A stretch of DNA of 64,000 bases, taken from contig NC_090716.1 in the NCBI RefSeq assembly GCF_040954835.1, forward strand, positions 4,265,605-4,329,604. Direction: 5' to 3'. Shown here piece by piece: positions 4,260 to 59,276 of the stretch. Numbering within the stretch: the first letter of the stretch is position 1; the number at the start of each line of letters is the position of its first letter. The DNA comes from Lepisosteus oculatus. Lineage: Eukaryota > Chordata > Actinopteri > Semionotiformes > Lepisosteidae. The notes under the pieces are model-generated. The model was given only the letters and a program-made list of their open reading frames with translations, was not told where the DNA came from and did not search any database. A program made the position numbers and the translations under genes.

Positions 4260-4699
4260 CATATTGGTATGACCTATTTGTAATTTGTCATTTGTAATGA
4301 TCATACGTCCCTTACGCAATTATTTAGGGTAAATAATTAAGGATGATCCCTGCCTGATACCTGCAGTATCAATCAACAGCTTCGTCTCTGTGAGGCAGGG
4401 GATTCTTTGGAAAACCCAGTCAAGTCACATACAATGAACCAGAGAAAATTGTATGATAAAATAATAATACAGTCTGTCTGGCAACAGTACAACATGACAG
4501 TAGCTGAGCACCCATCTTCACTTTTGTACCCTGTTGCACTGCCCTGGACTGAGTAAAAATGAAGTTGGCCTCCTCTAATGTCGGGAATGTCAGCAGAGAC
4601 TAGGCTCTGTAGAGAGACACAGATATCTATCTGGCTGCAGCGCCGCCCCACAGCCTTGTTAACTATCAGAGGAGATACATGGAAGGACATTCAGGGGCA

Positions 4700-5420: not shown

Positions 5421-5785
5421 GCCGTGGAGTTGTGATTGGAAAGATGGAGGTTGCAGTCACCTGGCAGGGTCGCGGGGATCGCAGTGCTGCGTCGCTGTTC
5501 CATTTTTGAGTCCATCACAGTTAACTTGTTCCTTATAATCCCGAAGCACGTGTTATAATAAAAGAAAAAATAATGGCAGATAAATGGTTTGTAATAAATG
5601 GTTGAATAAAAATAGGGTTTATGTAAATAATACTTAACATTAACACTGGTGACATTGGTAGGAATAGAACTGGTCACAGTACCATGAGAAGAGAACAGGT
5701 TTTTCTAAGAAAATGAAGAGTTCATATCAAATCGGTGTTTTTGCTGTCGAAGAGTTAATGGTTGTAATGAGATTTGCCCTTTTGC

Positions 5786-5793
5786 TACGTCAC
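5786..5793 (+). promoter_or_regulatory. syt13: CRE-like site upstream of SYT13
   Basis: TACGTCAC, a half-CRE (CREB/ATF type), lies about 400 bp upstream of the SYT13 start codon and just before the GC-rich leader. A regulatory role is inferred from motif and position only. Confidence 0.35.
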
Positions 5794-5809
5794 ACAGATC
5801 TTACACATC

Positions 5810-6189
5810 AGAGTCTCAGAGGAGGCAGAGGGAGGAGGGGAGTGGGAGCAGCATCAATGAAGCAGCCTTCATTCTGAACGAGCCGCGAGTGGCACTGCTC
5901 CCAGCGCCTCGTCTCTCTCGCTCTCGCCTCCTCCCCGGATTCATCAGAGGAGACGAGAGGAACCGCCGTCCTTCCACACCAGTGTGCCGAGGGAAATATC
6001 CCGTTTCCACGCTGGATGAGCAGAGCAGGGAATCCCAGCAGTGCAGGAGCAGCTCAGTCTTATAGCTGGTCCTTGTCGAAACTGGGGGGAACAGCCCAAT
6101 TTTAATGCGGACGTTCGAGGACTTTTAATGATGTGGTTGAAGGACTAAGAAGACAGTATTTTCACTCCTATTTTTCCTGTGGCTCCAGC
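5810..6189 (+). promoter_or_regulatory. syt13: SYT13 5' leader with short uORF
   Basis: GC-richer DNA leads into the SYT13 start codon. Two ATGs at 6128 and 6131 share one frame and open a tiny uORF (ATG ATG TGG TTG AAG GAC TAA) that ends about 40 nt before the main start and is out of frame with it. The transcription start site is not determined. Confidence 0.45.
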
Positions 6190-6366
6190 ATGATTTTCTC
6201 TACCCCCATCATTGCCTTGGGTGCCACTCTGGGCACAGCTTCAGGTATTCTTGCTGTATGCGGGCTGTCACTTCTCTGCAAGTCTTACAGGAAGGGGCTG
6301 TCTGAGCAAGACACAGAAACAGACCCGGAGAAGACAAAACCTAGTGTCCTCCACTCCGCCCAGCAG
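6190..6366 (+). CDS. syt13: SYT13 coding exon 1
   Basis: Encodes residues 1-59, MIFSTPIIALGATLG onward, with the membrane span and the juxtamembrane Cys/Lys-Arg stretch (LLCKSYRK). It ends SAQQ in phase 0 at a gtaaac donor, the same junction position as the remembered human protein (AQQ|F). Confidence 0.93.
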
Positions 6367-35765: not shown

Positions 35766-37927
35766 TCAAACATCAGGATAAAACTCGGTGCTCGAGTCCA
35801 GGCCATGCAGGACTGACTTCTGCTCTGCCGCCGACATCCTGCTCAACACCTCTGCCGACAGAGAGTAACTGTTCCCCGACTTTTCCTCGAACCAGCTGTC
35901 CAATGGCCGCTTGCCGTCAAAGCTCGCTATAGGCGGCCCGTTCACCGCCAGCGTCAGCAGGTCGTTCACCTGATCCAGAGTGAGGCGGGACCGGTTGTTT
36001 TTCCGTATTTTCTGCAGGGCAATGCGGCCCTTGTCGCAGCAAGCCGTCGAGGATGGCAAAACCTTGAGAATCTGCACAATCCTATTTAGCAGGGGGAACT
36101 TCTGCTTGTACTTACATATATGGCTGATCACCTCCTTGAATCCGTTCATGCTGTAGTAATCGGATTTGAGATCCCTCCACTCCACTATCAAGCTTCCTCG
36201 GACATCAGCTCCTTCCCGGGAGACCTCCCTTGCTATGGACGGAATGGCCTCCAAATGGCCAAAGATGAGCAGAATTTCCTCCTCTCCGTAGGTCAGGAGA
36301 TCGTCGGTGCTCCTCGGCCATGTGGTGAGGTCAAGAACTTGGCAAGCCTTGACGATCGGCCGGCTTCTGCAATCGAACCGTTGAGCCAGGATCACCTGGG
36401 TCTTCTGGCAGATCTTTTCCCTGATGGACTGAAACTTGGATTCGGCAACCCTCAGGTTCTTCAGATCCACACCATTAAAGCTTTCCCTGAAGCTCTCCTC
36501 GAATTCCTGCAAATATTCCCCTGGGGAATCAGTCAGCCTCCCGATCTCCTGCACTGCCTCTTCAATCTTGGCATCCACTTGAGATACCAACAGGTAATCC
36601 CCTTGGAAGACGAAAGCCAAACGGGAGAGAACTGCGATGATGTCTAACAGAAAGTAGATGAGCTTCACGGACTGGTAGTCCATGAGGAACTGCAGCAAAG
36701 CCAGGGCAATGGCTGCAGCATCTGCTCTCTGGGTCTGGCTGCTGATCTCCTTGAGATGGGCCACAACCTCCAGGTAATCCTTTATCAAAGCATTTAAGAC
36801 ATTTGGCTCCCCAATGATCCACCGGACAGCTCTGATATCCCCAAGGAACTCCGTTTCCTCGGAGAGCGTGGGCGCAGTCGCCCTCAGCTCAGCCATCATT
36901 CGAGGGGAATAGCGGTAAAAGCTGAGCAGTTGCTTTAAATTATTCTCCAGGTCCTCCAAGCAAGAGAGCTCCTTCCCGCTGATGGCATCCAGGACTTCCA
37001 GGTGGGGTCGGTGGATCATGACCGGAAGGCAAAGCACCCAAGGAAGAGTCTTCCTCACCGTGATGTAGAGGTTGGACCTCAAACCTGAGGAGATATTGGA
37101 TCCATCGATGCCCAAGCCCACAATCAGCACATCTTGCAGTCTCATCCCCAAGACAGCAAAGGCTCTGTCAATAGCTTGGAGGTACCCGTCAGTGGTGGCG
37201 CAGCTCAGTTCCTGCAGGGACAGGAATTCTGTCGCGGGGGGGCCGTCGCTGGTGGTAAACTGCACGTAGACGGCCACCGTGTCGGCCAGCAGGTCATCGT
37301 TCTGGCCGTCCATGATGACGCTGAGGAATGGGGACTGCCGGATCCTCTCGATGAGGTCCTCCTTCAGAGCCCGCGCGATGTGGTGGATGAGAATCTGGCA
37401 GTCGCCCTCGTTCATGTACTGGTCGACCACTTTCAGCTCGCACTTCTTCAGGAGCTCCGCCAGGGGCCTGAAGTCCGAAAACGGCCTCCCTTCCAGAGCC
37501 AGGTGGTAGGCGGCGTTGAAGAGCAGGGTCATGTTCCTGCACATCTCCTCCGTCTTCTCCGGGTGCATCCTCAGCTTGTAGAGCTGCAGGCACTTCTTGT
37601 GCAGGTTGCTCTGGCTGTGCAGCTTGATGGTGTGGATCTTGAACTGCTTGGACCCGATGATGAAAGCGGAGGTCCTGGAGGACTGGACAGTGTACTGGCG
37701 GCACACGTGGCACCACATCTCGTTCAGGGTTGGGGAGTAACGCAGGAACCAGAACTTCTTCAGCCACTCCTGCTTGAAACGTCGGATCCTGCGACCGGGG
37801 CCACTGGACAGCTTAGAGGACTCATCGGTGGTCACCATGAGATCGGTGGCGATGGATTCATCCGCCGAGTCCACATCCGGGTCGTCGTCATCCATGACGA
37901 TGGGAATGGGAGTCATCGCTTCTGAGG
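35766..37927 (-). CDS. prdm11: PRDM11 terminal exon 7, domesticated hAT-transposase-like
   Basis: One 2162-nt exon after a ccctctgcag acceptor. It begins [20 protein letters not shown], then [20 protein letters not shown] and [10 protein letters not shown] with downstream His residues (TTF/BED-like finger). A hAT RNase-H-like region follows with [33 protein letters not shown] and a His-Arg after LPVMI. The C-terminal block [20 protein letters not shown] resembles the hAT dimerisation domain. It resembles the transposase-derived part of ZNF862/ZMYM-type proteins. The frame is fully open over 719 codons, so it is maintained as protein. No terminal inverted repeats or target duplication were seen. 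Confidence 0.92.
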
Positions 37928-40900
37928 CTGCAGAGGGGGTGGAGGGGTGGAAGGTGGGGGAACAAAAATGAGAACAATATCAGTTTTGCTCTCAAAAGGT
38001 GCTTTATTTTTCCCCCTTCATTAAACTGCAGCAATATGAACGACCATCATCTATCTGTGGTGCCTTGCAGCTCAAGCAATGCAACTATAACACGTTAAAA
38101 AAACAATCGAGGAATCACCTCTGCATAATTGACTGGAAAGGTCAACACGAGACTCTTGACAACAAAAAGCTGAAAAGAAAGAGCTATTAAAGCTAACTAA
38201 TGAAAAAGCACTACTTAGGCTAGTTCACTTTTAATGGAGAACAGGTAGGCACAGAGGGAGTTGGGGGTCTGGAAGAAGCTATGTGGCCATGTTGTTGAAT
38301 CAGATAACCTGGCTTTCTTCAAAAAAAGGCGGAATAAGATCCTCATGTCAATGAGCTACTAGTTACCAAACAGGTGACACCTTAGAACCTTAAAATGCTG
38401 GTTTGGAATCTTTCTTGTGCTCTATTTGTATACGGGTGTGGCACAATACACCTTTATAAAACACTTACCTTTTAATGTCAACTGTTTTACTCAACCAGGT
38501 GAAACGGTTTTGGGCAGTGTGAGGATCTGCACAATTTTAACGCAAGAGCTATTTACTTATGAGCTACCCCTTTCCCTACAGAAAATGGTTTTTAAACATC
38601 TTGAAAATGTCTTGAATCACTTTTATTTAGTGGAAAAAGGAAAGAAGCATCTTCAGTGATTTCTCAACACACTCATTACTCATTGCATTCATAAAAACAT
38701 AAAACTGTAAAAACAATTACAAGACAAGAAGGCATAACGCACATTGTTAAGTGCTGCTAGTTTTAATGGGTAAAGAAAACAATTTTGTTAAGAGCACAAA
38801 TGTGTTGAATACTTATTTTAGGTTTAACCCTAAGATTGAAAAGCCGGGGTTTTATAATGGTAATTTATGTGCAACAGAAATATTAATGTTAAAAATGAGA
38901 AAGACTCATAATGTGTAATAATATGGGACACAAATGAAACAAAATTCTTAAGATGTCATCAAATACAGTGTAATACATTGCTTTATGTACCACTTCCTAT
39001 CATCTTATTTATCACTAAGAATGCATAAATACCTCAGCAACAAGAAGATTATTATTTATACAAGAAGAAGAAATTACAACTTTTGAGTTTGTACAATGTT
39101 TTAATACGACAATATTGAGGGCATTTTATTTAAATATAAAATAGCAACACCAATATCAGGATACAAAAATGTTACAATTGAATAATTCATTTCACAACCT
39201 TAACCAAAGGCAACCTGAAATGTACATTTTGCATTTGTTCATCAACTAATTAAATAATAAAAAACAGCACATCACCGACACTCATGCTAGACTTAGAGCC
39301 AAATCACGCTGAATGTCAAGAACAGGAAGAATGAAAGAAATGCCACAAGTTCAGTTATGAAACAGAAATATGACATCCACCTCACTGAAAGCTAAAGCCA
39401 TATCAAATTGTGCCTTTTTATGGCAAAACATAAGCTTCTAAAGGCCAGTGACCTGTCAATGTGACACAACTACCGCAGGGACAATGATGGCTTTGTTTTC
39501 CCCTTCGAAACGAAAGGATACGAAAGGAAACCCAGAGGCCTGCACAGAGTCCACAAGAAGTGTGCAAAAAAAAGAGGAAGAATTCCCATTTAATCCCTAT
39601 CGCGTGAGGAATTGGGAGGTCGAAGCACAACAGAAACCCAAGCTGAGGATGGGCATAGCCTGTAATGACATGAGACCAATATGCAGCATTCCCAGCCACC
39701 AGGTCAAGAGATCTACTGCTGGGGCCTGAGAATGAAGATGCCTAAACTCCTCAGCTAGACGCCTCGGGCTCGGGACCCACCAGGAAAGCTCTCCATGTGC
39801 TTTCCCGACCGTGAACGTACCTTGTAGCTCTTCAAGCTGAGACAGTTCGGGCAGCGATGGCTGACAGGGAGGTTCGGGTGGCTGCCCGGACCTCAGCCTG
39901 TCCAGCTCGGCCTCGAGCTCCCTGATCTTCCTCCTGAGCTTCACGCAGTTGGGGCAAAAAGAAGTCGAGGGGCTCACGTTGGGCGGCCCGTCGGCCGCCG
40001 CACGGGGGCTGCCGTCCGCGTCCTCCACCTTCACGCGGCCCGCGTCCGCCTCCGCTTCGTTTTCGGCCTGTCGGCAGCCTCCCGCCCGGTCCGGCGATCT
40101 GCTTTCCGTCTTCAGCCTGGCGAGGCCCAGGTAAGAGCATCCCGCCGCCGGCGCCGCCTTGGGCCGCTCGTGGAGCTCTCCGCCACGGCTCCCCCTCGTC
40201 TTCCGCAGAGGGAAAGTGCTGTTCGCGGGCAGGGGGGTCCCCGCGCGCTTGGACTCCTCCAGAGACGCCTCCAGGACGTCCTTGAAGATGAGGTCGATTT
40301 TCTTCTTCTTGGCGGGGTGCTGGCCGTCTCCATCCTCGGCCCCCCGTTTCCCGAGGGACCGCCCCCCGCGGAGGGCCGACCTCAGAACCGACCCCTTCGC
40401 GTCTTCCAGATTTCCCGACGGCTCGTCCGGTTTCTCGGCCGTCGGCCTCCCTGCACAACGGAAAAGCACAGAGACTCAATCACGGCCCCCTGGCGCGAAA
40501 GGGGTACCGTTAAAAAAGCACGACTGATACCGCGGCAGGTTAAAAACACAGCGAAATCAGAAAGGGGGGGTGGAAAAGAGATCATAAGGAATCGCAAAGC
40601 AAGCTGTGGCAACATTCTCCAATTCTGTCAAACGCCTTTCCAAACAAAACTGAATGCAAGTTGTTCACAAACACTTAAATTGACAACTTGGTGGAAGGCA
40701 GTCCAAACAAACAGGCTGGCAGAAGAAAGGCATTGATGCTGCACTACATTTTGTTTTTTTAGAATTTTACAGTCTTTCAATTTTATTTTTGAGGGGGGAG
40801 GGGGGAATCTTTTTTTTTCCCCCCAACTAATCTTTTGATCCACATTAGTTAAGAACACCACCATCCGACAATATTATAAACCCGGTGAAATTCATACGCT

Positions 40901-43900: not shown

Positions 43901-46900
43901 TGTTGTGTAGGATGCTTCAAGGACTAATGCATTTTTTACTGCTTTGTGATCTGTTAAAAAGCCTACAGGAAACGATCAAGGATCAAGAGAAATCGTAGGT
44001 CGAGCTATGGTTCCTGTCTTGTTGCTCTGGTTCATTAGCAACTTCCCTTAAGATTAAGAGCTATTTATCAACACTTTGCTCAACCTAATTGTGAGCTATT
44101 TTCAGACTGGGGAGACACTTAGCTACAACATGGGAGGGAGCCAGAGACTGTTCTGGCACTAAAGCAAAAGAAAACAACACCATGCTTTTAACGACTCCTC
44201 CTCACACCAGCATGAAAGAGCCAGCACTTTTCCACCAGTAGCGTCCCTCACCGCACAGGTATTTACACACCCTCAGGAAGTCTGAACAGGAGAGGAGATA
44301 ATGCCGAAGAGTCAACAGCGACGGACCACACTCCGCAGGCAGACCAACCCATCAGCCGCAGAAAGAACCCCTCGTTTCTCCTCGCTCCTGACACCACAGC
44401 AGTCCTTTCCGTTCCGAGCGGCACGAAGGCTCTGTCTGCCACCACACCCTGCCGTTTGCTGGGACTCCCTGCGGAGTGACCAGCGCTGCCCATGGCTGTT
44501 AATCACTGCCAGCCCTGAGCGAAAACACCAGGAGGGGACTTCACAAGCTTGACACACTACTTACAGGTGAAAGAACGGTATCAAGGAGAGTGAAATCCGT
44601 GTAATTAAGCCGTATACTTAAAAAAAACAATGGAAGTAATTAATTTTATATGCTGTAATGACATTGAGAACAATTGTGTTCATTTGAGCTTATTTGCCAC
44701 ACATTATTTGATATCAATCAGTGTTTTCCTGTCCTACACCAATGGAACTCTAATAATAAACAGTGGAGAGCATGATACCCTGCGATTCAAATTTCCACAT
44801 TGAAAGATTCCTTCCCTGACAGCAGGTCCCCGATTTAAAATGACGATTCAAAATACCGACGGCAAAACTGAAATGAAAACTAGGGGAAGTCATCCGGGGA
44901 AATTTCCACATTTCATCTGTGACATAATTAAATTCTTAACCAAAAATAGAACAGCAACATGTGGACGAACGTACATTTCACTGGCAACGTTTGCTTACTT
45001 TTTAAATAAGGCAGTATTTCCACTTTGAGTTTGTACTGAAGAGGATTCCAGGGAAATGTTTGCTTCTGCCTGAAGTCAACAGTGTTTCTCTCAGAGGAAA
45101 AGCGTCTGTGCCAAAGTCACCGCAATAGAAGACTCGCAGTCTGGAGCAGCGCATTACTCGGGACACTGCCCCCAGCTGGAGTGCCTCAGGGCGCCTCCAA
45201 ACACGTTTCACTGCAGGACGGACACTAGAGGGCTTGAGGCACTGCAACCAAGAGTTTATCCAGCCAAGTTTTTTTTTCTTCTTGTTGACACAGAAAGGGT
45301 TACATTGACAGCACGCCCAGATTCACGCTCCCTTTCCCACAAGAGAGCGTTTAACCTTCCCACTGCACCGAGGTGGAAACAAGCGCATTTCCAGAGCAGA
45401 AACGAACTAGAGAAATTGAAAACAAACCAAGCTGGACTTCTGTGGGAAGTCACCAGCAGGGAGGGGAAACTCCAAATGCTCACCTCCCACCAGGTTGCGG
45501 TCGATGCTCTCCTGGGAAATGCTGTGCAGCCTCCTCATGTACTCGGCACTGTACCATACGCGCAGCCTCTCGCCCGCCGTGATGTCCCGGCAGGCGCGGA
45601 AGTAGATCTCCTCGCCGTGCTGGAAGGCCATCAGGTTCTGTTCGTTCTCCTCCCGAGAGATCATCACGTACCTGAGGCCAACAGCACGGGAACACGAGAC
45701 TCAGAGACGAACGCACTGCGTCCTTTCACTTTTAACACTGCGCAGCCTCCCAGAATGCTGCAAAAACCGTCGCAGAGAAATCATAGGATACTGATGAGAA
45801 TGAGTATATTCGATGAGGGGATATTCGTTAAAATGCATATCCCCAAATTCCTGCTGGTGAGCCCATCAGAGGAGAGCACATTAACTTCTGTTGGCGTGCA
45901 AAAGCATCATATATCAGAATGCAAGTTTTTGTGCATCACAGCAGAACTGAACTTATTGGGTACTGTCTGTGTATGTTCTTCAGCTCTTCAATAAGCGGTT
46001 CTTGACTTCCTAAGATCCTCTTCTTCTGCTCATTATCTACTCATCATTTCTAATTAAATACCAGTTCATGAACTACCCTCACAACGAGCTTTCAATCATT
46101 AATGGTATGTAAAAATAGCCACCAACTTTAAAGACATTTCAATTGGAAAGTACAGAAAATATGAGTAAATATTCATTAAATGTATACTGCACATACTGTA
46201 CACTTCCAGTAGGAGTGAATTATTCTGTGCTCTGTCTTTCTCTGTAAAGAAGTAGGATATAATTTGAAAGAACTGTGATGCGCACCTAAGAAATTTGATA
46301 TTTTTATTAAAAAAATGGACATGTTCCAACTTTGATGAATGCGAATAGGTCTGAGGATTCCTTTCCATTTTACATTCATGCTGTTTTCATTAATTGTTCA
46401 TCGACTACATTAAGTTAACGTCACTGGTACAGTATCAGTTTACAAGTTCAGGAACCCTCCTTAAACCTTTGACACAGAACAGTGTTGGATGCGCTAACAA
46501 ATAATGAGGTTGACTGCAACTATATTATTATTTTGAGACCTCTGTCAGTAGACCGTTATTCAATTAAGAAGCAGCACGTGTGGTATTCCAACACTGATCT
46601 CAAACAAAGAGGTGAAAGAAAAATACCTCATCCAGTTTGCTTTAGTTTCATCAGTGCCGTCAATTGACTTGTATCGGTTGTTTTTGTCAACAATCTGAAA
46701 AAGAAAATGAAGCCAAAAATCACCTTTATCTGAAGCAAAACAAAGTGCACACCTGATGCATCGAGGCATAATTGCAGCTCTCTGTCGACCTGGCAAGAGC
46801 GACTGTGCACACCTGACTAGAGCTCTTCGCAGAATGACTAACGGACATTTTTAAAAAATCCTGCTTTTATTTACCATCCAGGAGAAGAATCCAGACGACT

Positions 46901-48797
46901 TATCTTGCGCAACCACCTCTCCCTCATATGGGCCAAACAGCACGCCTTTCCTGAACACCTTGTCCACGCAGCACACATCTGTCTCGCCACCTGGCTCCTG
47001 AATCACCTCGATTCCTGGGGGGACCGTCAGGCTTGCACGGCGGGGCACCCCCACAGCTATAGGCGTGTCCGGCAGAAACACGGGAGGGCCGTGTGCCGGG
47101 CATTCCTCCACAAAATACTCCTTACACTCTTCACAGACTGCAGGAGAACAAGCACAAAACACGCACGCCCTTACAGTTCGAACTTCAAACACGACACAAG
47201 CGGCAATGCAGTCAAAATAAGAACATTATTTAGGGGAACTGCAACGCTATTTTTATACGTTGGGGTAAGAAAGAATTCACATTGAGGAGTGCATTTCAAA
47301 CCACAATAAAAGCACAATGCGTACCTTGTAAAATCTCAATTTACACCACAAAATAGATTATATTTCCAGTTTTGCGAATCACCATGTTCTGCGATTCAGA
47401 ATGAGGCAACAACATTTTCGGTAAAGTGAAGCGGTCCTACTACACTGTAAACAACCAGACTTGTGAATACATCTTTTTTAATCCAATAGAAATAGTGCTC
47501 TCGACTTCGAGACGGTTTTGCCGACAAATACGCATCGCGTCGCAATTCTCCTGTGGAGAGACCAGGAGTTTGCAACAACACGGCGACTTACAGTACTTTC
47601 ACCAAGTTCACGATCTTGTGCTTCTTTCGAAATCTGTACAATTTTCCTATACCGTCAACGTATGTATTTTGTTACCAAGATTTAATAACCGGACTGAGAA
47701 ATGTGGACTGCGGCTCCCCTTTAATATAACCAAAAACATGATTAAAAGGAAGTAAAACTGGTAAAATGGCATCTGGGGAACCGGAGAAGGGGAAACAGCC
47801 GAAGCTCCTCGGAGAAGACTGAACACTTACACCAGAAGTCCACTTGTGGGTAGCCTGCAGCCACGCAGTGCTCGTGCTTCACCTTCAGCTTCTTCTTGGG
47901 TTCATCGCTCAGGTGGTGTTCCTCCTCTTTGATTCTGCTGGAATCAGACAGGAGAGGGTTAAGAGTAAAACTGTTTTATGCCTGCAGCTGGCGACGGTAT
48001 TATCAGGGTATTGTGAAAGAAGCAGATGGACAGCAGGACACAACACCCACCTATGAGTACCACACACCCCACACTTTTTAAACATTACAAACTCCATCCA
48101 TCTTCCAAGTGCTTTATCCAATACAAGGCCACAGGAGAGCCAGAGCCTAACCCGGCAAGCAAGAGACACAAGGCAGGATACATCCTGGATGGGACGCCAG
48201 TCCATAGCAGGACACGCACTGACACAAATACACACACATACCAGGGCCAAATTTCCCAGAAACCACCTAACCGACCAGTAAGTTTATGGAGTGTGGCAGG
48301 AAACAAGAGCACCTGGAGAAAACACACAGGAACACAGGGGGGACATGCAAACTCCACACGGAAAACACCCCAGGTCCAGAATTAAACTCAGAGCTCTGCT
48401 AACTACTGCATCACTGTGCTGCCCAATAATACAAACTCAAGATTAGAAAATAGAAAAAAAACGATGTAAAAAAAAGGCAGAAATTGGAGAAAGCACTACA
48501 TTTGACAGGTGGAACTTTTGACACAAAGGGTCGTAGGAGCATGGAACTAGCTATCCAAGTCATGTTGTTGAAGCTGGTACTTTTTTTCGAGAAACAGCTG
48601 GATGAGATCCGCAGATCACTTAGCTACTAACGACCAATCGAGTTAGAAAGGCTGTATGGTTGCATCTTGTTAATACCAGCTTCTATGTTCTTATGACAGT
48701 GCCCCTGTCCCCCGTCCCCCCCCCAGAGAGACTACCTCTTGCTGCAGTTGGGCTCCTCGTCAGAAGACTCTTTTTTGGAGGTGCTGGATTCGGCCAT
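35766..48797 (-). CDS. prdm11: PRDM11, PR/SET-domain protein fused to a hAT-transposase-like C-terminus
   Basis: A nuclear PR/SET-family regulator. Joined minus-strand exons are 48797-48736, 47937-47831, 47137-46875, 46694-46627, 45671-45484, 40450-39821 and 37927-35766. They sum to exactly 3480 nt, encoding 1159 aa plus stop, with all phases matching. A C-C-C-H zinc knuckle (C58, C61, C69, H72) precedes the PR domain (about 76-212), which contains [37 protein letters not shown] and [19 protein letters not shown]. Next come the [18 protein letters not shown] motif and a CPNC-plus-heptad segment. Residues 510-1159 carry a TTF/BED-like finger and a hAT-like RNase H fold. There is no C2H2 array, as known for PRDM11. 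The start codon is the first ATG after an apparent 5' UTR acceptor, but the frame is open upstream. Confidence 0.92.
37928..39820 (-). other. prdm11: PRDM11 intron 6
   Basis: AT-rich. Its first 224 nt, on the minus strand after the exon 6 donor, remain in frame and could serve a retained-intron isoform. Nothing else was recognised. Confidence 0.65.
39821..40450 (-). CDS. prdm11: PRDM11 coding exon 6
   Basis: 630 nt, both phases 1, notably CpG-dense. Encodes a disordered region with the conserved [20 protein letters not shown] motif and, near its end, [20 protein letters not shown], a CxxC followed by a leucine-heptad coiled coil. The donor ACAAG|gtacgt lies within a frame that stays open for 74 more codons to 39597, so an intron-retaining short isoform is possible. 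Confidence 0.9.
40451..45483 (-). other. prdm11: PRDM11 intron 5
   Basis: A 5 kb intron. It contains a G-run/C-run inverted pair near 40.80 kb and a GC-richer patch at 44.27-44.57 kb that is open in several frames but shows no recognisable protein. The rest is AT-rich with nothing identified. Confidence 0.65.
45484..45671 (-). CDS. prdm11: PRDM11 coding exon 5 (end of PR domain)
   Basis: 188 nt from phase 2 to phase 1. Encodes [20 protein letters not shown] then [20 protein letters not shown] and [18 protein letters not shown], closing the PR domain and its C-terminal helix. Confidence 0.93.
45672..46626 (-). other. prdm11: PRDM11 intron 4
   Basis: 955 nt of AT-rich sequence between two PR-domain exons; no repeat or exon recognised. 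Confidence 0.7.
46627..46694 (-). CDS. prdm11: PRDM11 coding exon 4 (PR domain)
   Basis: 68 nt, entry phase 0, exit phase 2. Encodes [20 protein letters not shown] then WMR, the NWMRY motif that lines the SET-fold cofactor region. ZNF408 has a 68-nt counterpart ending GNWIR. Confidence 0.93.
46875..47137 (-). CDS. prdm11: PRDM11 coding exon 3 (knuckle and first half of PR domain)
   Basis: 263 nt, entry phase 1, exit phase 0. Encodes [20 protein letters not shown], then [20 protein letters not shown] and [20 protein letters not shown]. Its length and phases are identical to the equivalent ZNF408 exon at 54995-55257. Confidence 0.93.
47138..47830 (-). other. prdm11: PRDM11 intron 2
   Basis: 693 nt, more than half of it copy B of the dispersed repeat also found in SYT13 intron 5. 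Confidence 0.7.
47343..47725 (+). repeat. Dispersed repeat, copy B
   Basis: Same blocks in the same order as copy A: ACAAAATAGA, CTGCGATTCAGAA, GTGAAGCGG, CTTGTGAATACA, GTGCTCTCGA, GAGACCAGGAGTTT, AAGTTCACGAT, TTCGAAAT. It lacks about 150 bases present in copy A. Unclassified element. Confidence 0.65.
47831..47937 (-). CDS. prdm11: PRDM11 coding exon 2
   Basis: Reads [20 protein letters not shown] then [20 protein letters not shown] joins to FCEEC in the next exon, the same junction as in remembered human PRDM11 (QQVDFWFCESC). Acidic then lysine-rich; a possible nuclear localisation signal lies at PKKKLKVK. Confidence 0.88.
47938..48735 (-). other. prdm11: PRDM11 intron 1
   Basis: 798 nt, with a tRNA-headed SINE copy occupying its centre. 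Confidence 0.65.
48091..48423 (-). repeat. tRNA-headed fish SINE, copy 2
   Basis: On the minus strand the end of the element lies at the CCATCCAT side. Diagnostic blocks on the plus strand are GGCAGGATACATCCTGGATG, ACGCCAGTCCATAGCAGGAC and GGGGACATGCAAACTCCACA, closing with CACTGTGCTGCCC. Same family as the copies at 25.9 and 55.3 kb. Confidence 0.7.
48736..48797 (-). CDS. prdm11: PRDM11 coding exon 1
   Basis: Encodes [20 protein letters not shown] and two bases, followed by a gtagtc donor. An acceptor (ttcctgcag) on the minus strand would start this exon at 48855, so an upstream leader exon is likely. The frame stays open upstream of the ATG, so a longer N-terminus cannot be excluded. Confidence 0.7.
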
Positions 48798-49404
48798 TGC
48801 TGGGGGCCTGAGGCTGGGTGACCTGCAATTCCCAGTGAAGCCTCTCACGCCAGCGCTGCAGGAAGGCAAGGGCAGGGAAAAGGGGCTGGTGAGAGCCAAG
48901 GCGCTGCTCGGGAAAATGCAATCGGATCTTCGAGACACAATGAAGCACAGCAGTACCACCAGAACAAAAATAACCATTCATTACGTCTATTAGGTGACTC
49001 GATGGAAAAATATCAAAAGTGTCAAAGGAGAAGGTTGAAATGATTACAAGCTTTGGAAATACGTGTCCCTATTTCTGAGATAAAGTCCTCGGCTACTCTG
49101 TTGCATTTTCAGCGCTGATTGTGTATTTGGATTTAAATGCAGCTACATACAAAGTCTGGAGTGCTTGTACTTGATATTTGCTGATGCCAAACCGCAAAAA
49201 TCTGCATTTTATGTTAACTGCATAGGGAAGCCTAGACCATATTCCAAACGCCTTGTACATAACCTTCCACAACCAATTTCCCATTCATACTCTTCTCATT
49301 TAAGTACAGTGGGAAATTCTGTATGTAAGCAATTGCCATCATACAATGGAGTGATCAAAACAAGTAACAGGCTGAATTGCGTAATACACATATTACATGA
49401 ACAA

Positions 49405-49535
49405 GTGGGGAGCTGCGTCAGCATGTGCTGGCTGCTAAAGAACAAGTTAAAGTTAATTCCACACTGGAAAAGGCCCTACAGCCAAAATGTTGCATTCCTG
49501 TTTTGTTTTTCAGCGTGCAGTTAACTTTTCCTTGT
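49405..49535 (+). repeat. Foldback repeat family, diverged copy
   Basis: Shows GGGAGCTGCGTCAGCATG, then CTGCTAAAGAACAAG, and further on ATGTTGCATTCCTGTTTTG with TTTTTCAGCGTGCAGTTAAC, matching both arms of the palindromic copy at 63.6-63.8 kb with substitutions and small gaps. Confidence 0.5.
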
Positions 49536-50767
49536 CCGCATAACTATGCGTTTACTTCTTGTTGTATATACTTGTTAGTTCTCGTTAATTAGACTATATT
49601 ATATATAATGGTACTGACATATTGTAACTATACCTGCCCTGGATTTAAGGTAAGGTTAATGGAACAAAAAGTAACAAGTACATTGCCACTTTGGGGAAAA
49701 TGCATTTAATATGTAGATCTGCCCTTGAATTCTTAAATTCATAGTTTTCAACAACAAAGAGTCGTCTGCGTTGAGATTTAAGACTTTATTTACAGTTCAA
49801 ATCGGAGTTCGGAAGGACACGTTCATTAAATCACCAGCAGTACAACAATGGACAAAAGAGCGTACAACACAAGAAGAGACGGCTTAATGGAGCACACATT
49901 TAACATCCCACGAGTCTTCGATTAAACACAAAAAACAGGAAATCTGAATAAACTGCGTAGGAAGAATCGCAACAATGGTTTTACTGGCACGTATTCCGAA
50001 AGCATCAACACTACGTTGAGACAACGGGCCATTTTAGTATTTTATATAGTAGGTAAACAAATTTTCCACGTCTTTGAAGCAGAAAAGCATTGCGAGTGAA
50101 AATTCGTAGGACTTGCAGAGTTTTATTTAAAGCAAAAATAATTCTCCCCTTAAAAATTCTTGTAACACACTGAGCTGCTGCTCTATTGTTCTTCCCATCA
50201 TATGGAATGAATTATATGAAATGCACTAGTCTGGGGTCAAAAGCTGGTTTTTCACAGTCACGCTGGAATAACTCACCATAACGGTATGCATACTTTACTG
50301 CTGGACTTGGTTTCTGGGTTCTCATACAAGCGCCTGCCTGACACATCAGTGAAATTTTCACCAGCAGGAAAATGTCAATTAGTAAATAAGTTGTGATTTG
50401 AAATTTCCTGTATGTTCCTGTAAGGAGGACTCCATGGCTAGATATTTATCAGATCGCATTTCCGAGCTGTTCTTCGAGTTGATCTGCGTTAAAAGCAATG
50501 AAGTAGGTCCCAGCAATCTACGTATTAAACATTAGGCATGAGCAGTGCAGTGGGTGGTCTTTAAATGTAGTCATTTCAACACATCTTAAGAAAATGTACA
50601 ATATTTTAACCAAAAACCCCAAAACATTTTACCGACAAACACATATTTTAGCTTTGACACACTTTAATATGAATGTTCCACATCGCAGAAAATGCAATAA
50701 AGCCGACGTGATAGCGAAGGACGAACAACGTAAAATAGGAGATAACCTTTTTATTTTAATACGGAAA

Positions 50768-51020
50768 CTGCTTTTTTGGGGGGGTCACAAAACCTCGCGC
50801 AGTGACACCAAACCTAGAAGACGCCAACCCCCCCCCCCCAAAAAAAAAAACCACAACGTAACTCCGCCTTCCAGCAAAATCAAACTCCTACATGCAGCAA
50901 AAGCAAACTCGTGCATAAACTAAGAAAGCCCTGGCGTAGTAAGGAAGAAAGACATTGATTGCATGTGAAAAAGAAAAAAAAATGCTTCGCTTTCATGCTT
51001 TTTTTTGGGGGGGGGATACT
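50768..51020. repeat. Complementary homopolymer tracts (T/G, C/A, T/G)
   Basis: TTTTTTGGGGGGG near 50770, a run of C followed by a run of A near 50827, and TTTTTTTTGGGG with ten Gs near 51000. The middle tract is complementary to the two outer ones, so hairpins or slippage are possible. They lie just left of the promoter motifs at 51.1 kb. Confidence 0.6.
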
Positions 51021-51089
51021 GGCAACACGGGGACAGCGCTTCTACACACCTCCACCTTTCCAAACCACAGCTCGGAATCCGAACTCCGC

Positions 51090-51170
51090 CTGGCGACGTC
51101 ACCGCCCCCCCGTGGCAAAATGTCTAGCGTGGCCACTCCGGCGCGCTGATTGGCTACGGGTGACGTCGCT
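51090..51170 (-). promoter_or_regulatory. prdm11: CCAAT/CRE promoter, probably of PRDM11
   Basis: CpG-rich DNA with two CRE-type sites, CGACGTCAC near 51095 and GGTGACGTCGC near 51161. Between them an ATTGG box at 51149-51153 reads GCCAATCAGCGCG on the minus strand. The CCAAT orientation favours leftward transcription into PRDM11, but a bidirectional promoter is equally possible. The transcription start is not mapped. Confidence 0.45.
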
Positions 51171-51551
51171 CAAAAAAACAGGGCTACAGTGTAACAAAAA
51201 AAAACTGCAACAAAAACAGGAGAGATCTTGTCCCTTTAAATAAAACTCCACATACCTGCAAAGTTTGTGTGACATTATCGCAAAGACAAGCGCCCCTAAG
51301 AACCCACTGAACCTCTGTTGTTGAAGGTCTATTCACGGGCTGCTACACGTATCACCACCAGATATGTCCCCGATCCCAGTCTGCAGGCTGTTGGCAATTT
51401 GCCTAGCTCTTTCAGAAGCCATTTTCATTGGCCACATTGGCTACTAAAGACTGACTCACCTTCTACAGAATTCAAAACCTTTTTTCGGCTTTTGCGCTCT
51501 ACTCTCAGGACCGTGAACTGGACAGTCCCTGCCGCGCAGAGCTCGCCTCGG

Positions 51552-51855
51552 ATGACGCGCCGGCACAGTTGTGATTTAGTAGTCCCAGGCGAGGTAAAGT
51601 TTTTTTTTATATTCGAAATAATTTTCAGCGAGTCAGCTGCTGCTCTTAGCTTTGACCACCATCTTTTTATTACAGGAAATGACATGGAAAACGGAAGAAA
51701 GCAACTTGAGTCCAGAGAGGGACCCCCGAAATCGAAGACGAAGACAAAATTGTGCATATTTTGAAAAGTTTGGCTACAAAACAATTGCAGCTACCTGTGC
51801 TATGCACGCTTGTCGCCGATCTGCAACCCAGGAGTTAAGAGGAAGCACCTTATAA
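51552..51855 (+). CDS. Candidate small spliced ORF (73 aa), unrecognised
   Basis: An ATG at 51552 opens 14 codons (MTRRHSCDLVVPGE) to a strong GAG|gtaaag donor at 51593. An 82-nt intron with a pyrimidine-rich tttttattacag acceptor follows, and exon 2 (51676-51855) continues in the same frame (EMTWKTEESN...) to TAA. The product is basic (RNRRRRQN) and has three Cys in exon 2. I do not recognise a family. It may equally be a noncoding divergent transcript, or a leader of ZNF408. The only support is the splice signals and frame continuity. Confidence 0.25.
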
Positions 51856-54260
51856 AATTTAGCCTCCTAGCTTGTAGCCACGGAGCAATCAGGAAAGATG
51901 TATATGGTTCATGAAGGCTTTTATTATCTTGAAGTTTATTCTTGGTTTTGAGTTAAAAGTTTTGGTGTAGGCACGTTGACTTGCAGTTCAATTATTGATT
52001 GCAGCTACGGTCCAATATGATGTATAATGTTTTGCCTCGCTCACGATTAAATGTAGTAATTGACTTATAATACTGGTCGTCATCTGCCCATAGTAATACA
52101 ATCTTTGTGGTTATTTTTTATTATTCTGGTGAGTGTAAGATCCCTTAAAAAGTTATCTAAACTATTAAACGTTCATTTTAATTCCCAAATTACATGTGCT
52201 TAATTATCCTAAACCCACGTTCTTCTCCAAGTTCTTTAAAAATAAAATAATAAATCGTTATGCTTAGGTGTATTTGCCATAGTGTCATTATTTTTGTATT
52301 TAGTCTTATCAACTCACTTCTCACGATATGCGATTTTAAAATCAAGTTCTTTTACCGGACTCTTGACTCTTAAATGGAAGGACGTCTTAGTTACAGGAGT
52401 GTTCGTCTAAAGTTGTGCCTTTTAATATCTTGTATATTATCTATGTATAATGATTAGTCCACAGTTTTGTGTACTTGAAGTTCCAATTAAGAGGGATAAC
52501 TTGAAAATGGTTAATTTGGGGGAAAAAATGAAATTTTTTAAAGGTATTTGGATTTTTCGAGTGCAGAATTGTACGTCTACAAATTAGAAGGATTTTCATC
52601 CGTTACGTAAAATTAAACGAACAAATTGTAATTCACAGTCACATGGGTGAACAAATGCTTTCGCAAAATCCTATAGACCATAATGCTATAAAACCAGTAG
52701 GAAAATACGATCTTTTCAATTTAATTAAATGCAGGACTTTCATCCAACAAGAAAATAGTAAAATTGTATAGTTCGTTCTTTGACCACATACAGTATGCTC
52801 GGTACATAGGCGATTATTTACAGACTGAATTGTAAATCAAGAACCTTACTCGTATATTCTATGAAAAAAAATCGCCGTGTTCTTCAATTGGGAAACAAAT
52901 TAAGCTAGTGCTAGATATTGATAAATGTTTTCTACTCCAGCAGACTGAAATAATTAAACCCCGCTTTTATGGTGTCTCTTGCTCAGGAAAAGTATCAATT
53001 TTAAGCTTACGTTAAACCCTAGACTATTTTCTATTAAAGGCATATTATTATATGTAAATGTAAAACAATTATTTTAATTCTACGCCTTTGTAATTGTAAA
53101 TTATTCATTAAAAAAATGTATGCTTGCCATAACGTTACAAACCGTATTTCTATGTAGTGGGTGTATCATGTTTCGTTTAATCACAAATGCTTCTTGAGAT
53201 TTTATTCTTTATTACATGCTGTTCTCCTGGATTTTGTGGCAGACGTCGCAGGCAAAACATTCTTAAAAGACAGTGTTCGAAAAAACCTGGGAAGGAAAGG
53301 GTCCGCAGCTATTCGGGTCATGTTAGGAGTTTTTTTTTGCCATTTGCAGAATTTTACACGCGAGTGTCTGCGAAACGTCGTCCGAGGAGAAACTAAATGA
53401 ATTCATTCGGTTCCCAGACATTTATGTTGTGCTCGATATTGTGCAATGTAGATTTATCGATAACAGTATGATGCGAGATAATTACCGTATTTCAAAATCG
53501 AGCCTTGAACCCACGTCTTTCGTCAGTAAACAAATTCACATTGACGTCTGGGAATGTGGAGGGAGAATGTTTCCACTCGGATGTTTGAGCTTGTGGCCAC
53601 AGTTTCCGGGTGGTCTCCATCTTGGCTGGAGAGCGATGATTTTCCCGGAGTTTGGGATGAAAGACAGAGAAGACTTTAGAAGCGAAACAGAAATGGCCAA
53701 GACTTGACAGAAATCTAACCCTGGGTTACTTAAATAATTTACATTATTGTTACTACAGTCCGGTATGCATTAAAATATAAAAATAGCCTTCAGTCTTCAG
53801 TTGATTGTTTTGTCCAGGGCCTCACTGTTGACACTGTTTATTTGTTACCTAAGACTGTTTGAAATTATTCATATACAGTATTTAAATTTAGCTAAAGAGG
53901 AGCCTAAGGTTTTCTCATAAGGCTCAGCGCAAGACAAGTTCAAATACAGGAAGTGTAATGTCACGAAAAACAGAGACGAGCTGGAGCATTTTTACGAAGA
54001 ATCAGAAAACGTTGTGTGAGTACAGTTTTGTTTAAGCAATCATTCAGTAAACATCAGTATTGATATGATAGGTTGTGCAGAGACGTAGTTTCATGTTCGA
54101 TGTAATGAGTTTAAAATGTGTTTGCCCGTAGTTGTATACTGACACTATGCACCCTATGCTGAAAACATCCAGTGCTGTTTTCTGCCAACTGTTAAGTTGC
54201 AACTTACTAACGCCTTCGTGCAGTGTTCAGTTTCTGTGATCCTAAACGCGTCACGATACG

Positions 54261-54272
54261 GCGCATGCGCAG
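54261..54272 (+). promoter_or_regulatory. znf408: NRF1-type site, likely ZNF408 promoter
   Basis: GCGCATGCGCAG is a perfect palindromic NRF1 core in a CpG-rich spot, about 730 bp before the ZNF408 knuckle exon. Such sites usually lie close to transcription starts of TATA-less promoters. Assignment to ZNF408 is by position. Confidence 0.5.
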
Positions 54273-54994
54273 AGCGTGAGCGTGGGGTCCTGTACTTCAG
54301 CAATTCGTGTACATTTTAATCACATTAACACGAATAAAGGAAAGTATGTATGCACAGAGTAAGCTCCTAATAATGTATGTGAAAAACATGCCTAGTTACA
54401 AAAAATCATAATGATGTGTAGTTCAGACTGCGACTAAACTATCATAGTCGGTCAGTTTTTGTTTCCTGTTCTCTAAAATGCATAAAAAAGATTCTTTAAC
54501 AGTAAAAATCATATACTGTACAAATGGTTGATCTTTACCTCTTCAGCACCATTTCCTCTTGGTATGACCCAGTCTCGTCTCGTTAGCCTGTCTTTTGTCT
54601 TCCCAGCTCCCCTTAGCATAGTATTCCTGTACTCTTCTGCGTTCCCCCAAGCATCCACGACCGAAACATAGTTTTTTCACTTTTCTTGTTAGTTTTCAGT
54701 GTGGAATTATACGCTGCTTGTTCTCTAAACCTGTGTGCATTTAGATGACCAGCAGTGACTGGAGCTGACAGTTCAATCGAAAGATGTCAAGAGCACAGCC
54801 CAGCTATAGTGCCAAGCCCCCCTTAAGGCGAAACGTGCTCTGTACTAAGTGCTGTGGCCGGCTGGTAGCATCGCCTCTGTGATTTTCAGCTTTTCTTCTG
54901 TTTCATTCTGGGCCTCCTCTGCAGTATTCCTCTGTCCTTGTTGTTGTGCTTGATTTGTACAATTGAATCGCTTGTGTGACCCGTCTGCACGTAG

Positions 54995-55257
54995 CCTGTG
55001 ATGACTGCAGAGAAGGCTCTGGGGGGGAGTGCCCAGCTGCCGGGGTCCTGCGGTGCATTAGGAGCTCCAGTCCGGACCCAGAGTCCCCCTGCCCCGCCCT
55101 CCTGCGCACCCTGCCCCCGGGGCTGGCGCTGGGACCTTCGCTGGCACGGGGCAGCTGCATCGGCGTCTGGTGTGTGGGCAAGGCCGTGCACAAAGGAGCT
55201 TTCTTTGGGCCATTGGAGAACTGCGCCCATCCCACCGGTGTGGATGAGACTGAAGAG
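54995..55257 (+). CDS. znf408: ZNF408 knuckle/PR exon
   Basis: 263 nt, entry phase 1, exit phase 0 (GAG|gtaggt). Begins [16 protein letters not shown], a remnant of the PRDM zinc knuckle in which the last His is Ala, then PR-like [20 protein letters not shown]. The acceptor gcacgtag has a poor pyrimidine tract, but the exact match in length and phase to the PRDM11 counterpart supports it. Confidence 0.82.
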
Positions 55258-58200
55258 GTAGGTCTGGTACGAGTTCATCCATCCATCTGTTTTCTAACCG
55301 ATTCATTCAGCTCAGGGTCATAGGAAAGCTGGAACCTATGCTGGCAAGCAACAGGGGCAAGGCAGGATGCACCCTGGATAGGATATCGGCCCATTGCAGG
55401 GACACACAAACACACTCGCTCCAGGGACAGTTTCTACAGAAGGCAATTAACCCATCAAAATATCTTTGGACCCCGGGAGGAAACCAAACCCAGGGAGAAC
55501 ATGCAAACTCCATACAGACAGCACCCCAGGGCCAGAATTGAACCCAGGGCCCCAGCATGGCAAGGCAGCAGTGCTGACCACAGCACCACTGTGCCACTCG
55601 AGGACATGTAAACAGCAGTTTTGTAAATCAATAAAATCTTTATAGCGTTTAAGGTTAATTCCAGCTATAGTGTTTTCCAGTTTATGATGTTATTACTAGT
55701 AAAACAAACCCTGAGAGCTTGAGGACTAGAAACCTAAGTGTAATGGGTTCAGCATCCAGCAGGTGGCTGTACTGCACATTTGGTATCTTCATTATCTACT
55801 TCAAATAAAACTGTGAAGATGTCAAAATTTATGTCTGCCTAATTGTTTTTTTTTTAACAGGGAAGGGGACTGAATTCTGAGCAAACTATAGACCCTCTTC
55901 CTCTCGAGGAGGCAGGTAACTGGATAAGGTAATTTGAATAAGAAAAATTCCTCTAGCTTGGAGGTTCCCAATTTCTCGTCCTGGGGACCCACACGCCGGC
56001 TTGTTGTGCACTGCAGCTGAGCTCTTTCATTGAACCAGGAAGTTGCTTGGTTGGAATCTTTGCAAGGTTTTCTTTTTTAACCCAGGAACCGGCGATCTGA
56101 AGTAACTCAAGAAGCACACTACTTCAAAGGCAAGCCCCTACCTTTGGGGATCAGAAAAGGACCTGAAAACAAACGTGTCAAATTAAACCAGTGATTGTGT
56201 CTATTAAGGGTTTGATTATTTAACTCGGTGCTCTAACGAGTTTAACCCAGAGGTGTGTGGGTTCCAGGGCCAAGGCTGGGAACGCAGTTGTAGACACAAG
56301 ACACAAGAATCAAGTCAGCTGGGGAAAATACAATTCTCATCCTTAAGGCCTATAAGATCTGAGTTATAGAGGAGCACAAAGAATCCAGTTGCTAAGACTC
56401 ATTGCTAAGCATCTCCAGGGCCTGGAGAAGGACTCCTTGCTGTCATCCAGCCATGTCTCGTGTCTTATTTTATTGATCATGGGAATCCTCATTCTTGGGT
56501 CCTGTTGTATCGAGGGATCCATCTGCATGCCCACACAGTTCCCGCCCTTTCTCCCATGCCCAGGTTTGCCTGCAGGGCCGGAAGCGAGGGAGAGTGGAAC
56601 GCGTGCGTGCTTCGGTTGCGCGGGAGGCCGTACGTCAAGGCGCTTGAGGACATCGAGCCGGGAGTGGAGCTGCTCCTCAGGCCGGGAGAGGAGGGAGAGG
56701 TGTCGGCCGAGGAAGGCCAAGGAACGCGCGGCCAGGAGGCACAGAGCGAAGACGAGACCGTCAAGACCGAGGAGCGCCACGCCCGGGGGGAAGCTCTCGA
56801 CTCCGAGACTGAGGAGGTTCCGCGGCTACCAGGTAACAATGCTGGGAGACGGTCCCCTGAGATCAACAACTCTAGTCACAATATCTGAGGACAAAAGAAA
56901 GGTTACGAACGAGAGGAGGCTATTTGGATCATCTGGCCAGTTTGGTGGTTGGATCCCTGTGGATCCAATGTTCTCATCGAGATGTTCCTTGAAAAAAGTT
57001 GGGGTGTCAGCTGAAACAGTGAATGTAATGTGGAATAGACTGACTGAACTGTGTTCGAAGGAATTCTAATCTTTTGAAACTAACCGGGTGCCCCCCTTTA
57101 GTTTTAATTAAATTTGTTTCCGTTTTATTTGAGGTGATTGTGTGTTTGGTTAAATCTTTTTACAGATCCGAAAGAAAGCCATGAACAGGCTGTACCCAAA
57201 CCTCAAGGAGCTCATGCAGGTCCATCCGAGGCATGTGGAACCCCTGAAATTGCCGTACAGGAAGTTCCCAAAGAGTCCGGGGCAGCAGTAGAAGAGCACA
57301 GACCGCAGCGACTTCACCGTAAAAGACGACTGTCTCAAATCTGTAAGAAGGATTCGAGAAATCATTTACCCCGTGACTCCGAAGAGACAGATTCTGCACA
57401 AATAGACGAGGATGGCTCTCCTGAGGCGCTAAACAACCCGGGTGCGTCCTCAGACAGGCCTTCCAAAGCAGCACTGGGGGGCGATGGGGATTCTGTGACG
57501 GAAACGCCGCAGGTGGAGGGTGCACACAAGGAACCGGAGGAGGGCGGAAGAATCGGGGAGGAAGGGACAGGTGGTTTCAGGGCCAGCTTGCGTCTGGCTG
57601 CCAAACCCCGGAAAGTGCACACGCTGGTCAGCAGAATTCAGAAGCGTCTGCAGGAGCGCAAGATGAGGGTGCTGGAGCGACAGGTGAGAGAGAAGAACGC
57701 AGCGGAGCAGAGTAAGGAGGACGCTGCAGGGAAAGATGCGGAGAATGAGCAAGGAGGATGGGGGGAGGCCAGCGTGGAAGAGGGGAAAAACAGCAAAGCA
57801 GTTCGGGAATTGGGTGCCGACATCCTGGATACCATAGGAAGTCCCTCGGAAGAACGGGAATCTTCTGTAAGCGCTGAGAGCCCAGACATCTCCCAGGCCA
57901 GCGATGCCAGGAAACGAAAATACAAATGCGATGAGTGCGAGAAATGCTTTTTCCAGCTCTGCCACTTGAAGAAGCACAAGTTCACCCACCGGGACTACAA
58001 GCCCTATCTGTGCAACGAGTGTGGCAAGAGCTACAGCTCTCAGGAGAGCTTCCGTGCCCATGTCCTGCAGCACAAGGGGGAGAGGCCTTTCAAGTGCCAG
58101 CACTGCGACAAGACCTATGGGCTGAAGCGGGACCTGAAGGAGCACGAGGTGCTGCACACGGGGGAGCGCCCATTCTCTTGCGACATCTGCGGCAAGTCCT

Positions 58201-59276
58201 TTGCACGGCGCCCTTCCTTGCGCATCCACAAGGAGATCCACCGCATGAAGGAGCTCAACGTCAAGGTGTCCAAGGCCTGCAAGTGCACCGTCTGTGACAA
58301 GGAGCTGGCCAACTCTGGCTCCCTGAAGAACCACATGAGGTTACACACCGGCGAGAGGCCCTATCCTTGTTCTCACTGTGGGAAAACCTTCAGGCAGAGA
58401 GGAAACCTCTTGGGGCACCTCCGTATCCACACTGGGGAGAAACCATATAAGTGTGAGTACTGTGAGCAGCGCTTTTCACAGATACCTGAGCTCAGGAGGC
58501 ACCTGATCTCCCACACCGGGGAGGTCTACCTTTGCCCTGTTTGTGGAAAGGCCCTCCGTGACCCCCACACCCTACGAGCCCACGAGCGCCTTCACTCTGG
58601 AGACCGCCCTTACAAGTGCGACCAGTGTGGAAAGGCCTACACCTTGGCCACCAAGCTGCGCCGGCACCAGAAGAGCCACTTGGAAGAAAAGCCCTACAAG
58701 TGCCAGACGTGTGGGGCGGGCTACACCCTAATGCAAAGCCTGGTCCGCCACCAGTTGTCCCACAAAAGGAAAGAGGAGAAAATTGCCGGGGAGCTGGCAG
58801 AGGCATTGGCAGCTCTGGAATCAGATCACTCTGCCCCTTCGAAGGGCAGGCCTAAGAAGGTAACCAGGAAAACCAGCAGGAGACCTCGTGCAGATAAGAA
58901 AGCAAGCGTGCAGCCCCAAGAAGAGCAAGTGGTGTATGTTCATGCTATCGATGCTGTGACAATGATGCCCGTTGCAGATGAAGGACAGGTACTGATAAGC
59001 ACTTCAAATCCGTTTGAGAACAGTTTGGCATTCGGAGCCGAGCACGTTCTCCAAGGAGTAGTAGGCTCCTCGACCGAAACTGGCCAGACTGTGCAAGGTC
59101 AGGCCAGAGGCCACATCCAGCTGAATGATGACATCATAGAAATCATCATCTCCGATTCGCACAACAAGTGCATCATCGTTGAGGAGGATAAATCTCACAG
59201 TAATGTTGTGATTCTACAGGAGGATGAAGGGCTAAATTCAGTGGCTGAGACTGTAGAAATTGAGACAGGATCGTGA
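54995..59276 (+). CDS. znf408: ZNF408, decayed PR domain plus ten C2H2 fingers (first exon not fixed)
   Basis: A probable nuclear DNA-binding transcription factor. Exons 54995-55257, 55861-55928, 56564-56832 and 57166-59276 join in one frame to encode 903 residues; a short 5' exon with the ATG must precede them. The first exon carries [20 protein letters not shown] and [18 protein letters not shown], which closely matches remembered human ZNF408 ([17 protein letters not shown]). An acidic low-complexity linker follows, then ten C2H2 fingers (57921-58763) with TGERPY/F-type linkers except an extended spacer before finger 5. The acidic C-terminus contains [12 protein letters not shown]. Human ZNF408 is about 720 aa, also with ten fingers, and lies beside F2 as here. 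The terminal exon's acceptor is taken as tttttacag at 57165. Confidence 0.9.
55258..55860 (+). other. znf408: ZNF408 intron after knuckle exon
   Basis: 603 nt, over half of which is a reversed tRNA-headed SINE; a T-run precedes the acceptor. Confidence 0.75.
55275..55597 (-). repeat. tRNA-headed fish SINE, copy 3 (best preserved)
   Basis: On the minus strand it starts GTGGCACAGTGGTGCTGTGG, has an intact-looking B box (TGGGTTCAATTCTGG) and ends in GATG repeats (ATGGATGGATG). Blocks such as GGAGTTTGCATGTTCTCCCT and CCAGGGTGCATCCTGCC are shared with the copies at 25.9 and 48.1 kb. Confidence 0.75.
55861..55928 (+). CDS. znf408: ZNF408 PR exon 2
   Basis: 68 nt after a ttttttttttaacag acceptor. 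Encodes [20 protein letters not shown] then WIR, with exit phase 2. Same length and phase as PRDM11 exon 4; NWIR matches NWMR. Confidence 0.85.
55929..56563 (+). other. znf408: ZNF408 intron between PR exons
   Basis: 635 nt with no recognised element; ends in a GC-rich acceptor region with a good pyrimidine tract. Confidence 0.7.
56564..56832 (+). CDS. znf408: ZNF408 PR exon 3 and acidic linker
   Basis: 269 nt after catgcccag, phase 2 to phase 1. [20 protein letters not shown] then PGVELLL aligns to the last PR strands of PRDM11 ([20 protein letters not shown]). A Glu-rich tail follows. The Tyr/Cys/Trp residues of an active-looking PR core are mostly replaced. Confidence 0.85.
56833..57165 (+). 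other. znf408: ZNF408 last intron
   Basis: 333 nt, nothing recognised; the upstream ORF frames enter it but stop. Confidence 0.7.
57166..59276 (+). CDS. znf408: ZNF408 terminal exon with C2H2 array
   Basis: 2111 nt. Opens [20 protein letters not shown]. It has a basic coiled segment ([20 protein letters not shown]), then ten fingers from [20 protein letters not shown] to [21 protein letters not shown] Lys/Arg-rich stretch after the fingers may be a nuclear signal ([18 protein letters not shown]), followed by an acidic hydrophobic C-terminus. Finger 4 to 5 spacing is about 11 residues longer than the canonical seven-residue linker. Confidence 0.93.

Follow-up and report, generated by a model that had tools for sequence, protein, structure and literature searches.

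The window analysed here, 64,000 nucleotides of Lepisosteus oculatus DNA (C21:4265605-4329604, contig NC_090716.1, in a genome of 1.2 Gb and 813 contigs that was the single genome used throughout), carries PRDM11 on the minus strand and, adjacent to it on the plus strand, a gene that we take to be ZNF408 (PRDM17). Their sequences make it very probable that both belong to the PRDM7/9/11/17 subfamily as members of long standing; they lie head to head at a distance of about 7 kb. On this reading both would descend from a PRDM9-like gene, after which ZNF408 would have diverged fast, losing the knuckle histidine and all three positions of the catalytic PRDM9 tyrosines; PRDM11 retains a conserved PR domain. 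The result is sound but modest: it confirms a published kinship, and it does not prove a local inverted duplication. The PR domain of ZNF408 is so eroded that its place in the family rests on weak trees, and a shared intron position plus a relict zinc knuckle fix its subfamily with less reliance on similarity. The exons, in window coordinates, are the following.

54995..55257, plus strand: ZNF408 exon A, relict knuckle and first half of the PR domain (263 nt; ACGTAG / GTAGGT)
55861..55928, plus strand: ZNF408 exon B (68 nt; TAACAG / GTAATT), ending within the NWIR codon in phase 2
56564..56832, plus strand: ZNF408 exon C, second half of the PR domain (read by eye)
57166..59276, plus strand: ZNF408 last exon, ten C2H2 fingers
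47831..47937, minus strand: PRDM11 exon 2 (by eye; acceptor ATTCCAG, donor GTAAGT), ending in phase 1 before the knuckle
46875..47137, minus strand: PRDM11 exon A, zinc knuckle and first half of the PR domain (263 nt; CTGCAG / GTAAAT)
46627..46694, minus strand: PRDM11 exon B (68 nt; TTTCAG / GTATTT), ending within the NWMR codon in phase 2
45484..45671, minus strand: PRDM11 exon C, second half of the PR domain
39821..40475, minus strand: PRDM11 later exon, presumably so named; the frame is open to 40475 and its 5' border is not fixed

Exon layout as a mark of the subfamily

The identity of PRDM11 is secure on sequence comparison: it matched the solved human PRDM11 structure (3ray) with an E value of 4.8e-88 and was 72% identical to the human PR domain over 158 columns. 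Exon 2 joined to exon A reads VDFW-F-CEEC. ZNF408 is presumably named correctly, judging from its ten C2H2 fingers and its neighbour, which we in turn take to be F2. Its PR domain is weak but real by profile comparison, as the region passes the Pfam model PRDM2_PR with 33.3 bits (cut-off, 27). Exons A and B are 263 and 68 nt in both genes, with phases 1-0-2 and GT-AG sites, and the coordinates, lengths and splice sites of an earlier sequence-only reading were confirmed. The residues quoted there are also present, but the equal lengths do not amount to a residue-for-residue alignment, since indels cancel. Compared with PRDM11, exon A of ZNF408 has one more residue before LPPG, a further two ahead of GPxE and three fewer behind it, which is why both measure 263 nt, and in exon B one codon gained and one codon lost offset each other. 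On these alignments, the homology is in the splice positions and phases and not in the number 263.

A PR profile search of the genome gave 29 matches in 19 places, PRDM11 among these; ZNF408 was missed, and its addition brought the set to 20 PR genes. A phase-2 intron within the motif NWxR|Y was found in seven of the 20, and the motif was unbroken in the other 13. The carriers are PRDM11, ZNF408 and five PRDM9-like units (C4:1.20, 14.722, 14.728 and 16.45 Mb, and C7:1.67 Mb). We define this intron here as a subfamily mark, having seen no published definition of it. Among the carriers, exon A measured 263 nt in PRDM11 and in ZNF408 and 272, 272, 272, 251 and 308 nt in the others; exon B measured 68 nt in six and 65 nt in the C7 copy. 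These lengths, together with the intron, indicate a layout that marks a subfamily and not a pair: the three-exon PR layout with phases 1-0-2 marks the whole PRDM7/9/11/17 subfamily in this genome. The idea that PRDM11 and ZNF408 are specially identical did not survive the comparison, and 263 = 263 as the sign of a special pair is refuted by the cancelling indels and by the lengths of the other members.

A second character agreed with the intron. An extra residue after the GVW motif occurred in all ten subfamily rows of the alignment and in none of the nine other rows covering the site (four further rows did not cover it). The knuckle cysteines alone occur in PRDM4, 10 and 15 too. The intron (7/7 against 0/13) and the extra residue (10/10 against 0/9) place ZNF408 in the PRDM9/11 subfamily, so that its description as a PRDM9/11-type paralogue holds.

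The PRDM9-like units include several on C4 (1.20, 14.722, 14.728 and 16.45 Mb), two of them a direct tandem 5 kb apart. Exon A of the 14.728 Mb copy has the acceptor GAAG instead of CAG, and in the 1.20 Mb gene the intron between exons B and C holds a long short-repeat array with QPSAHPWTL-type frames (3353-6554 of the extracted stretch).

Nearest relative of ZNF408

The sequence-only reading implies that PRDM11 is the closest relative of ZNF408; this finds no support, as PRDM9-like copies score slightly better. Against solved structures, the ZNF408 PR region matched PRDM9 (6.2e-9) ahead of PRDM2 (2.7e-7) and PRDM11 (3.2e-6). Exon A of ZNF408 gave ten non-self matches in its own genome at E values up to 10, of which the best five were PRDM9/11-type exons: C4:14.722 (28.7 bits), C4:14.728 (26.3), C4:1.20 (23.2), PRDM11 (23.1) and the C7 copy (20.5). 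At the 23 columns separating PRDM11 from the PRDM9-type rows, ZNF408 sided with PRDM11 at two and with the PRDM9 type at five, and it was 29.1% identical to PRDM11 over 148 columns. In a tree of 23 PR rows it fell inside a ten-row PRDM9/11 group (support 97/97), joining the C7 copy at 86/76. A ZNF408+PRDM11 clade was not recovered, nor was it rejected against that tree (p-AU, the P value of the approximately unbiased test, 0.322); grouping ZNF408 with the six PRDM9 rows gave 0.245. When ten rows were aligned with the exons as anchors, the groupings ZNF408+PRDM11 and ZNF408+C7 copy obtained 0.461 each.

Several observations weigh against placing ZNF408 in the subfamily. The best five exon A matches are weak (E 0.0013 to 0.48, the first two alone below 0.01), the ZNF408 branch is long (2.11 in the 23-row tree), and a PRDM9/11 group without ZNF408 was not rejected (p-AU 0.325). 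The Pfam knuckle model did not report ZNF408 and scored PRDM11 at 21.0, below its cut-off of 25.8. Moreover, since the profile search missed ZNF408, more degenerate PR genes may have escaped the count of 20. Along the same lines, the PR domain of ZNF408 could have come from another PRDM group such as PRDM2, with a convergent exon layout. PRDM2 ranked second in the structure search, human PRDM2 showed the highest identity to ZNF408 in one alignment (33.3% of 111 columns), and ZNF408+PRDM2 was not rejected (p-AU 0.334). We consider this origin very improbable, however, as PRDM2 and 12 other PR genes outside the subfamily do not have the NWxR|Y intron, ZNF408 has the three knuckle cysteines plus the extra residue after GVW, and the published placement, in the sections of that paper available, is with PRDM9/11 (PMC2082429).

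Gene order and origin of the adjacency

From left to right, the window contains an F-box exon (minus), SYT13 (plus; a C2 domain was detected), PRDM11 (minus), ZNF408 (plus) and an F2 Gla exon (plus), F2 continuing past the right edge. A CRAL_TRIO_2 match on the plus strand at C21:4.348 Mb, beyond F2, belongs to a gene that we take to be ARHGAP1. Like ZNF408, the genes called FBXO3, SYT13 and F2 are presumed to be so, and PRDM11 alone is securely named. The adjacency and inversion of PRDM11 and ZNF408 described earlier were borne out, and the distance, put at about 6 kb, came to about 7.1 kb between the start of PRDM11 exon 2 (near 47937, by eye) and the knuckle exon of ZNF408. First exons were found for neither gene: for ZNF408, the 51.0-55.0 kb interval held two GT[AG]AG[TG] donors, neither convincing, and a CpG scan of 46.5-57 kb disclosed no clear promoter island common to both. 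The translated plus-strand stretches at about 48017-48385 and 55254-55541 look alike and are perhaps copies of one interspersed repeat in the introns or flanks of the two genes.

For comparison we took the human order to be TP53I11(-) PRDM11(+) SYT13(-) ... PEX16 ... ARHGAP1(-) ZNF408(+) F2(+) CKAP5(-), with PRDM11 and ZNF408 presumably both on 11p11.2. A paper on chromosome 11 deletion (PMC4199189) reportedly names the two genes. On C21, PEX16 was located at 5.03 Mb, a CKAP5-type TOG domain at 6.58 Mb and TP53I11 at 11.46-11.48 Mb. A tetraspanin search gave 53 matches in the genome, seven on C21, of which the exons at 11.33 and 11.43 Mb, near TP53I11, were used; an ATG13 family search gave no match and is uninformative, and no gene was recognised among the open reading frames on the head side of TP53I11. 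The neighbours thus share chromosome C21, in an order that differs at several junctions from the one we assume for human. The contacts SYT13-PRDM11 and ZNF408-F2 are retained, whereas the junction between these two blocks differs.

Because the orders differ, a later rearrangement could have joined the PRDM11 and ZNF408 heads. That both genes were dispersed or distantly linked long ago and met by rearrangement in this lineage is a serious possibility, to which we give slightly less than an even chance. It agrees with the positions of ARHGAP1, PEX16, the CKAP5-type gene and TP53I11 on C21, and with the fact that the presumed human contacts TP53I11-PRDM11 and ARHGAP1-ZNF408 are both broken here. 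On the other hand, a change in the human lineage would explain the same differences, which one genome cannot polarise, and a chance meeting of two subfamily members is unlikely unless they were linked already.

Local inverted duplication in some form is possible, with a chance that we put a little lower still. In its strict form, ZNF408 and PRDM11 would be sisters born by such a duplication, with the original head-to-head linkage kept here and split later in the human lineage; this we regard as rather unlikely. The two genes are adjacent, inverted and of the same subfamily, and by our arithmetic the chance that a given gene lies within 10 kb of any of six subfamily genes in 1.2 Gb is about 1 in 10,000. 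Local duplication within the subfamily is seen elsewhere too, in the directly repeated copies at 14.722 and 14.728 Mb of C4, both genes presumably share 11p11.2 in human, and the sister clade was not rejected in either alignment. Against it stand the preference of ZNF408 for PRDM9 over PRDM11 among solved structures, the scores of three C4 copies above that of PRDM11, the two-to-five split of the diagnostic columns, and the free tree joining ZNF408 to the C7 copy. Between 44 and 60 kb no inverted repeat exceeds 34 nt, and no such repeat links a PR exon of PRDM11 to one of ZNF408, although an old event would not retain such a match anyway. A recent duplication is excluded by these short repeats and by the 29.1% identity.

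A tentative scenario, which we hold to be somewhat improbable, would have PRDM11 and ZNF408 arise as inverted tandem neighbours early in jawed-vertebrate ancestry, the founding junction being kept here and split by inversions in human, where the positions are those we presume. Should the adjacency prove ancestral, it would date the origin of ZNF408 and show a single PRDM9-like gene giving rise to two very different regulators next to each other.

Gene products and known systems

ZNF408 is a human eye-disease gene. The ten zf-C2H2 stretches of its last exon lie 3' of the PR domain. In its knuckle the three cysteines are retained and the histidine is replaced by alanine, leaving the C-C-C-H ligands incomplete; this histidine is also lost in the C4:16.45 Mb copy and in PRDM10. 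At positions 276, 341 and 357 of human PRDM9, where the tyrosines are catalytic (PMC5519329, in the sections available), ZNF408 has L, V and P and PRDM11 has Y, F and Y, the latter as in human PRDM11. ZNF408 thus does not show the tyrosines of a PRDM9-type methyltransferase, and their replacement plus the loss of the histidine suggest a non-enzymatic PR fold. Most likely, ZNF408 would be a zinc-finger DNA-binding factor with the PR fold as a platform, not an enzyme.

No C2H2 array was present in the PRDM11 frames seen. The later exon includes a 19-residue region and a donor, CAAG|GTACGT, at 39821. Downstream of PRDM11 and on its strand, an intact hAT-transposase-like frame of 737 codons occupies 35766-37979 (minus), with a zf-C17orf113 match of 8.9e-9 and a hAT dimerisation match of only 0.14. 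The phase of that donor matches that of the acceptor CTGCAG|CC (37927), which predicts a PRDM11-hAT fusion protein; a literature search found no report of one. At C7:1664000-1673900 (minus), a PRDM9/11-type PR gene is followed by matches to a BED finger (6.8e-10) and to a hAT dimerisation region (5.4e-9), both on the strand of the PR gene and in two different frames, and this is perhaps a second PR-hAT gene.

ZNF408 is also PFM14 or PRDM17 (PMC4009873, as far as its available text goes). Fumasoni et al. 2007 (PMC2082429) grouped PRDM7/9, PRDM11 and PRDM17 as a subfamily, as we do; in the available sections of their paper, the order within the group is unresolved, PRDM17 is its most divergent member and was not found in fugu, and sister genes are said to keep a similar gene organisation. 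Those sections differ from our account in giving neither the head-to-head adjacency nor an exon-phase argument for PRDM17. Baker et al. 2017 (PMC5519329) likewise treat PRDM11 as a PRDM9 duplicate, predating the split between cartilaginous and bony fishes, and report substituted catalytic tyrosines in partial fish copies; the available text leaves PRDM17/ZNF408 untreated, with no occurrence of PRDM17. We found no report of the adjacency or of the NWxR|Y intron argument in open-licence literature, a scope outside which lies the fullest PRDM survey, which may treat PRDM17. What is new here is the NWxR|Y intron in seven of 20 PR genes, the kinship itself being already published. The nearest parallel in this genome is the direct tandem pair at C4:14.722/14.728 Mb, where two adjacent genes again come from one subfamily and share an exon layout (272/68 nt each). 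Its members, however, have the same orientation and a tree distance of about 0.1, a close similarity that makes the pair young, whereas PRDM11 and ZNF408 are inverted and far more diverged.

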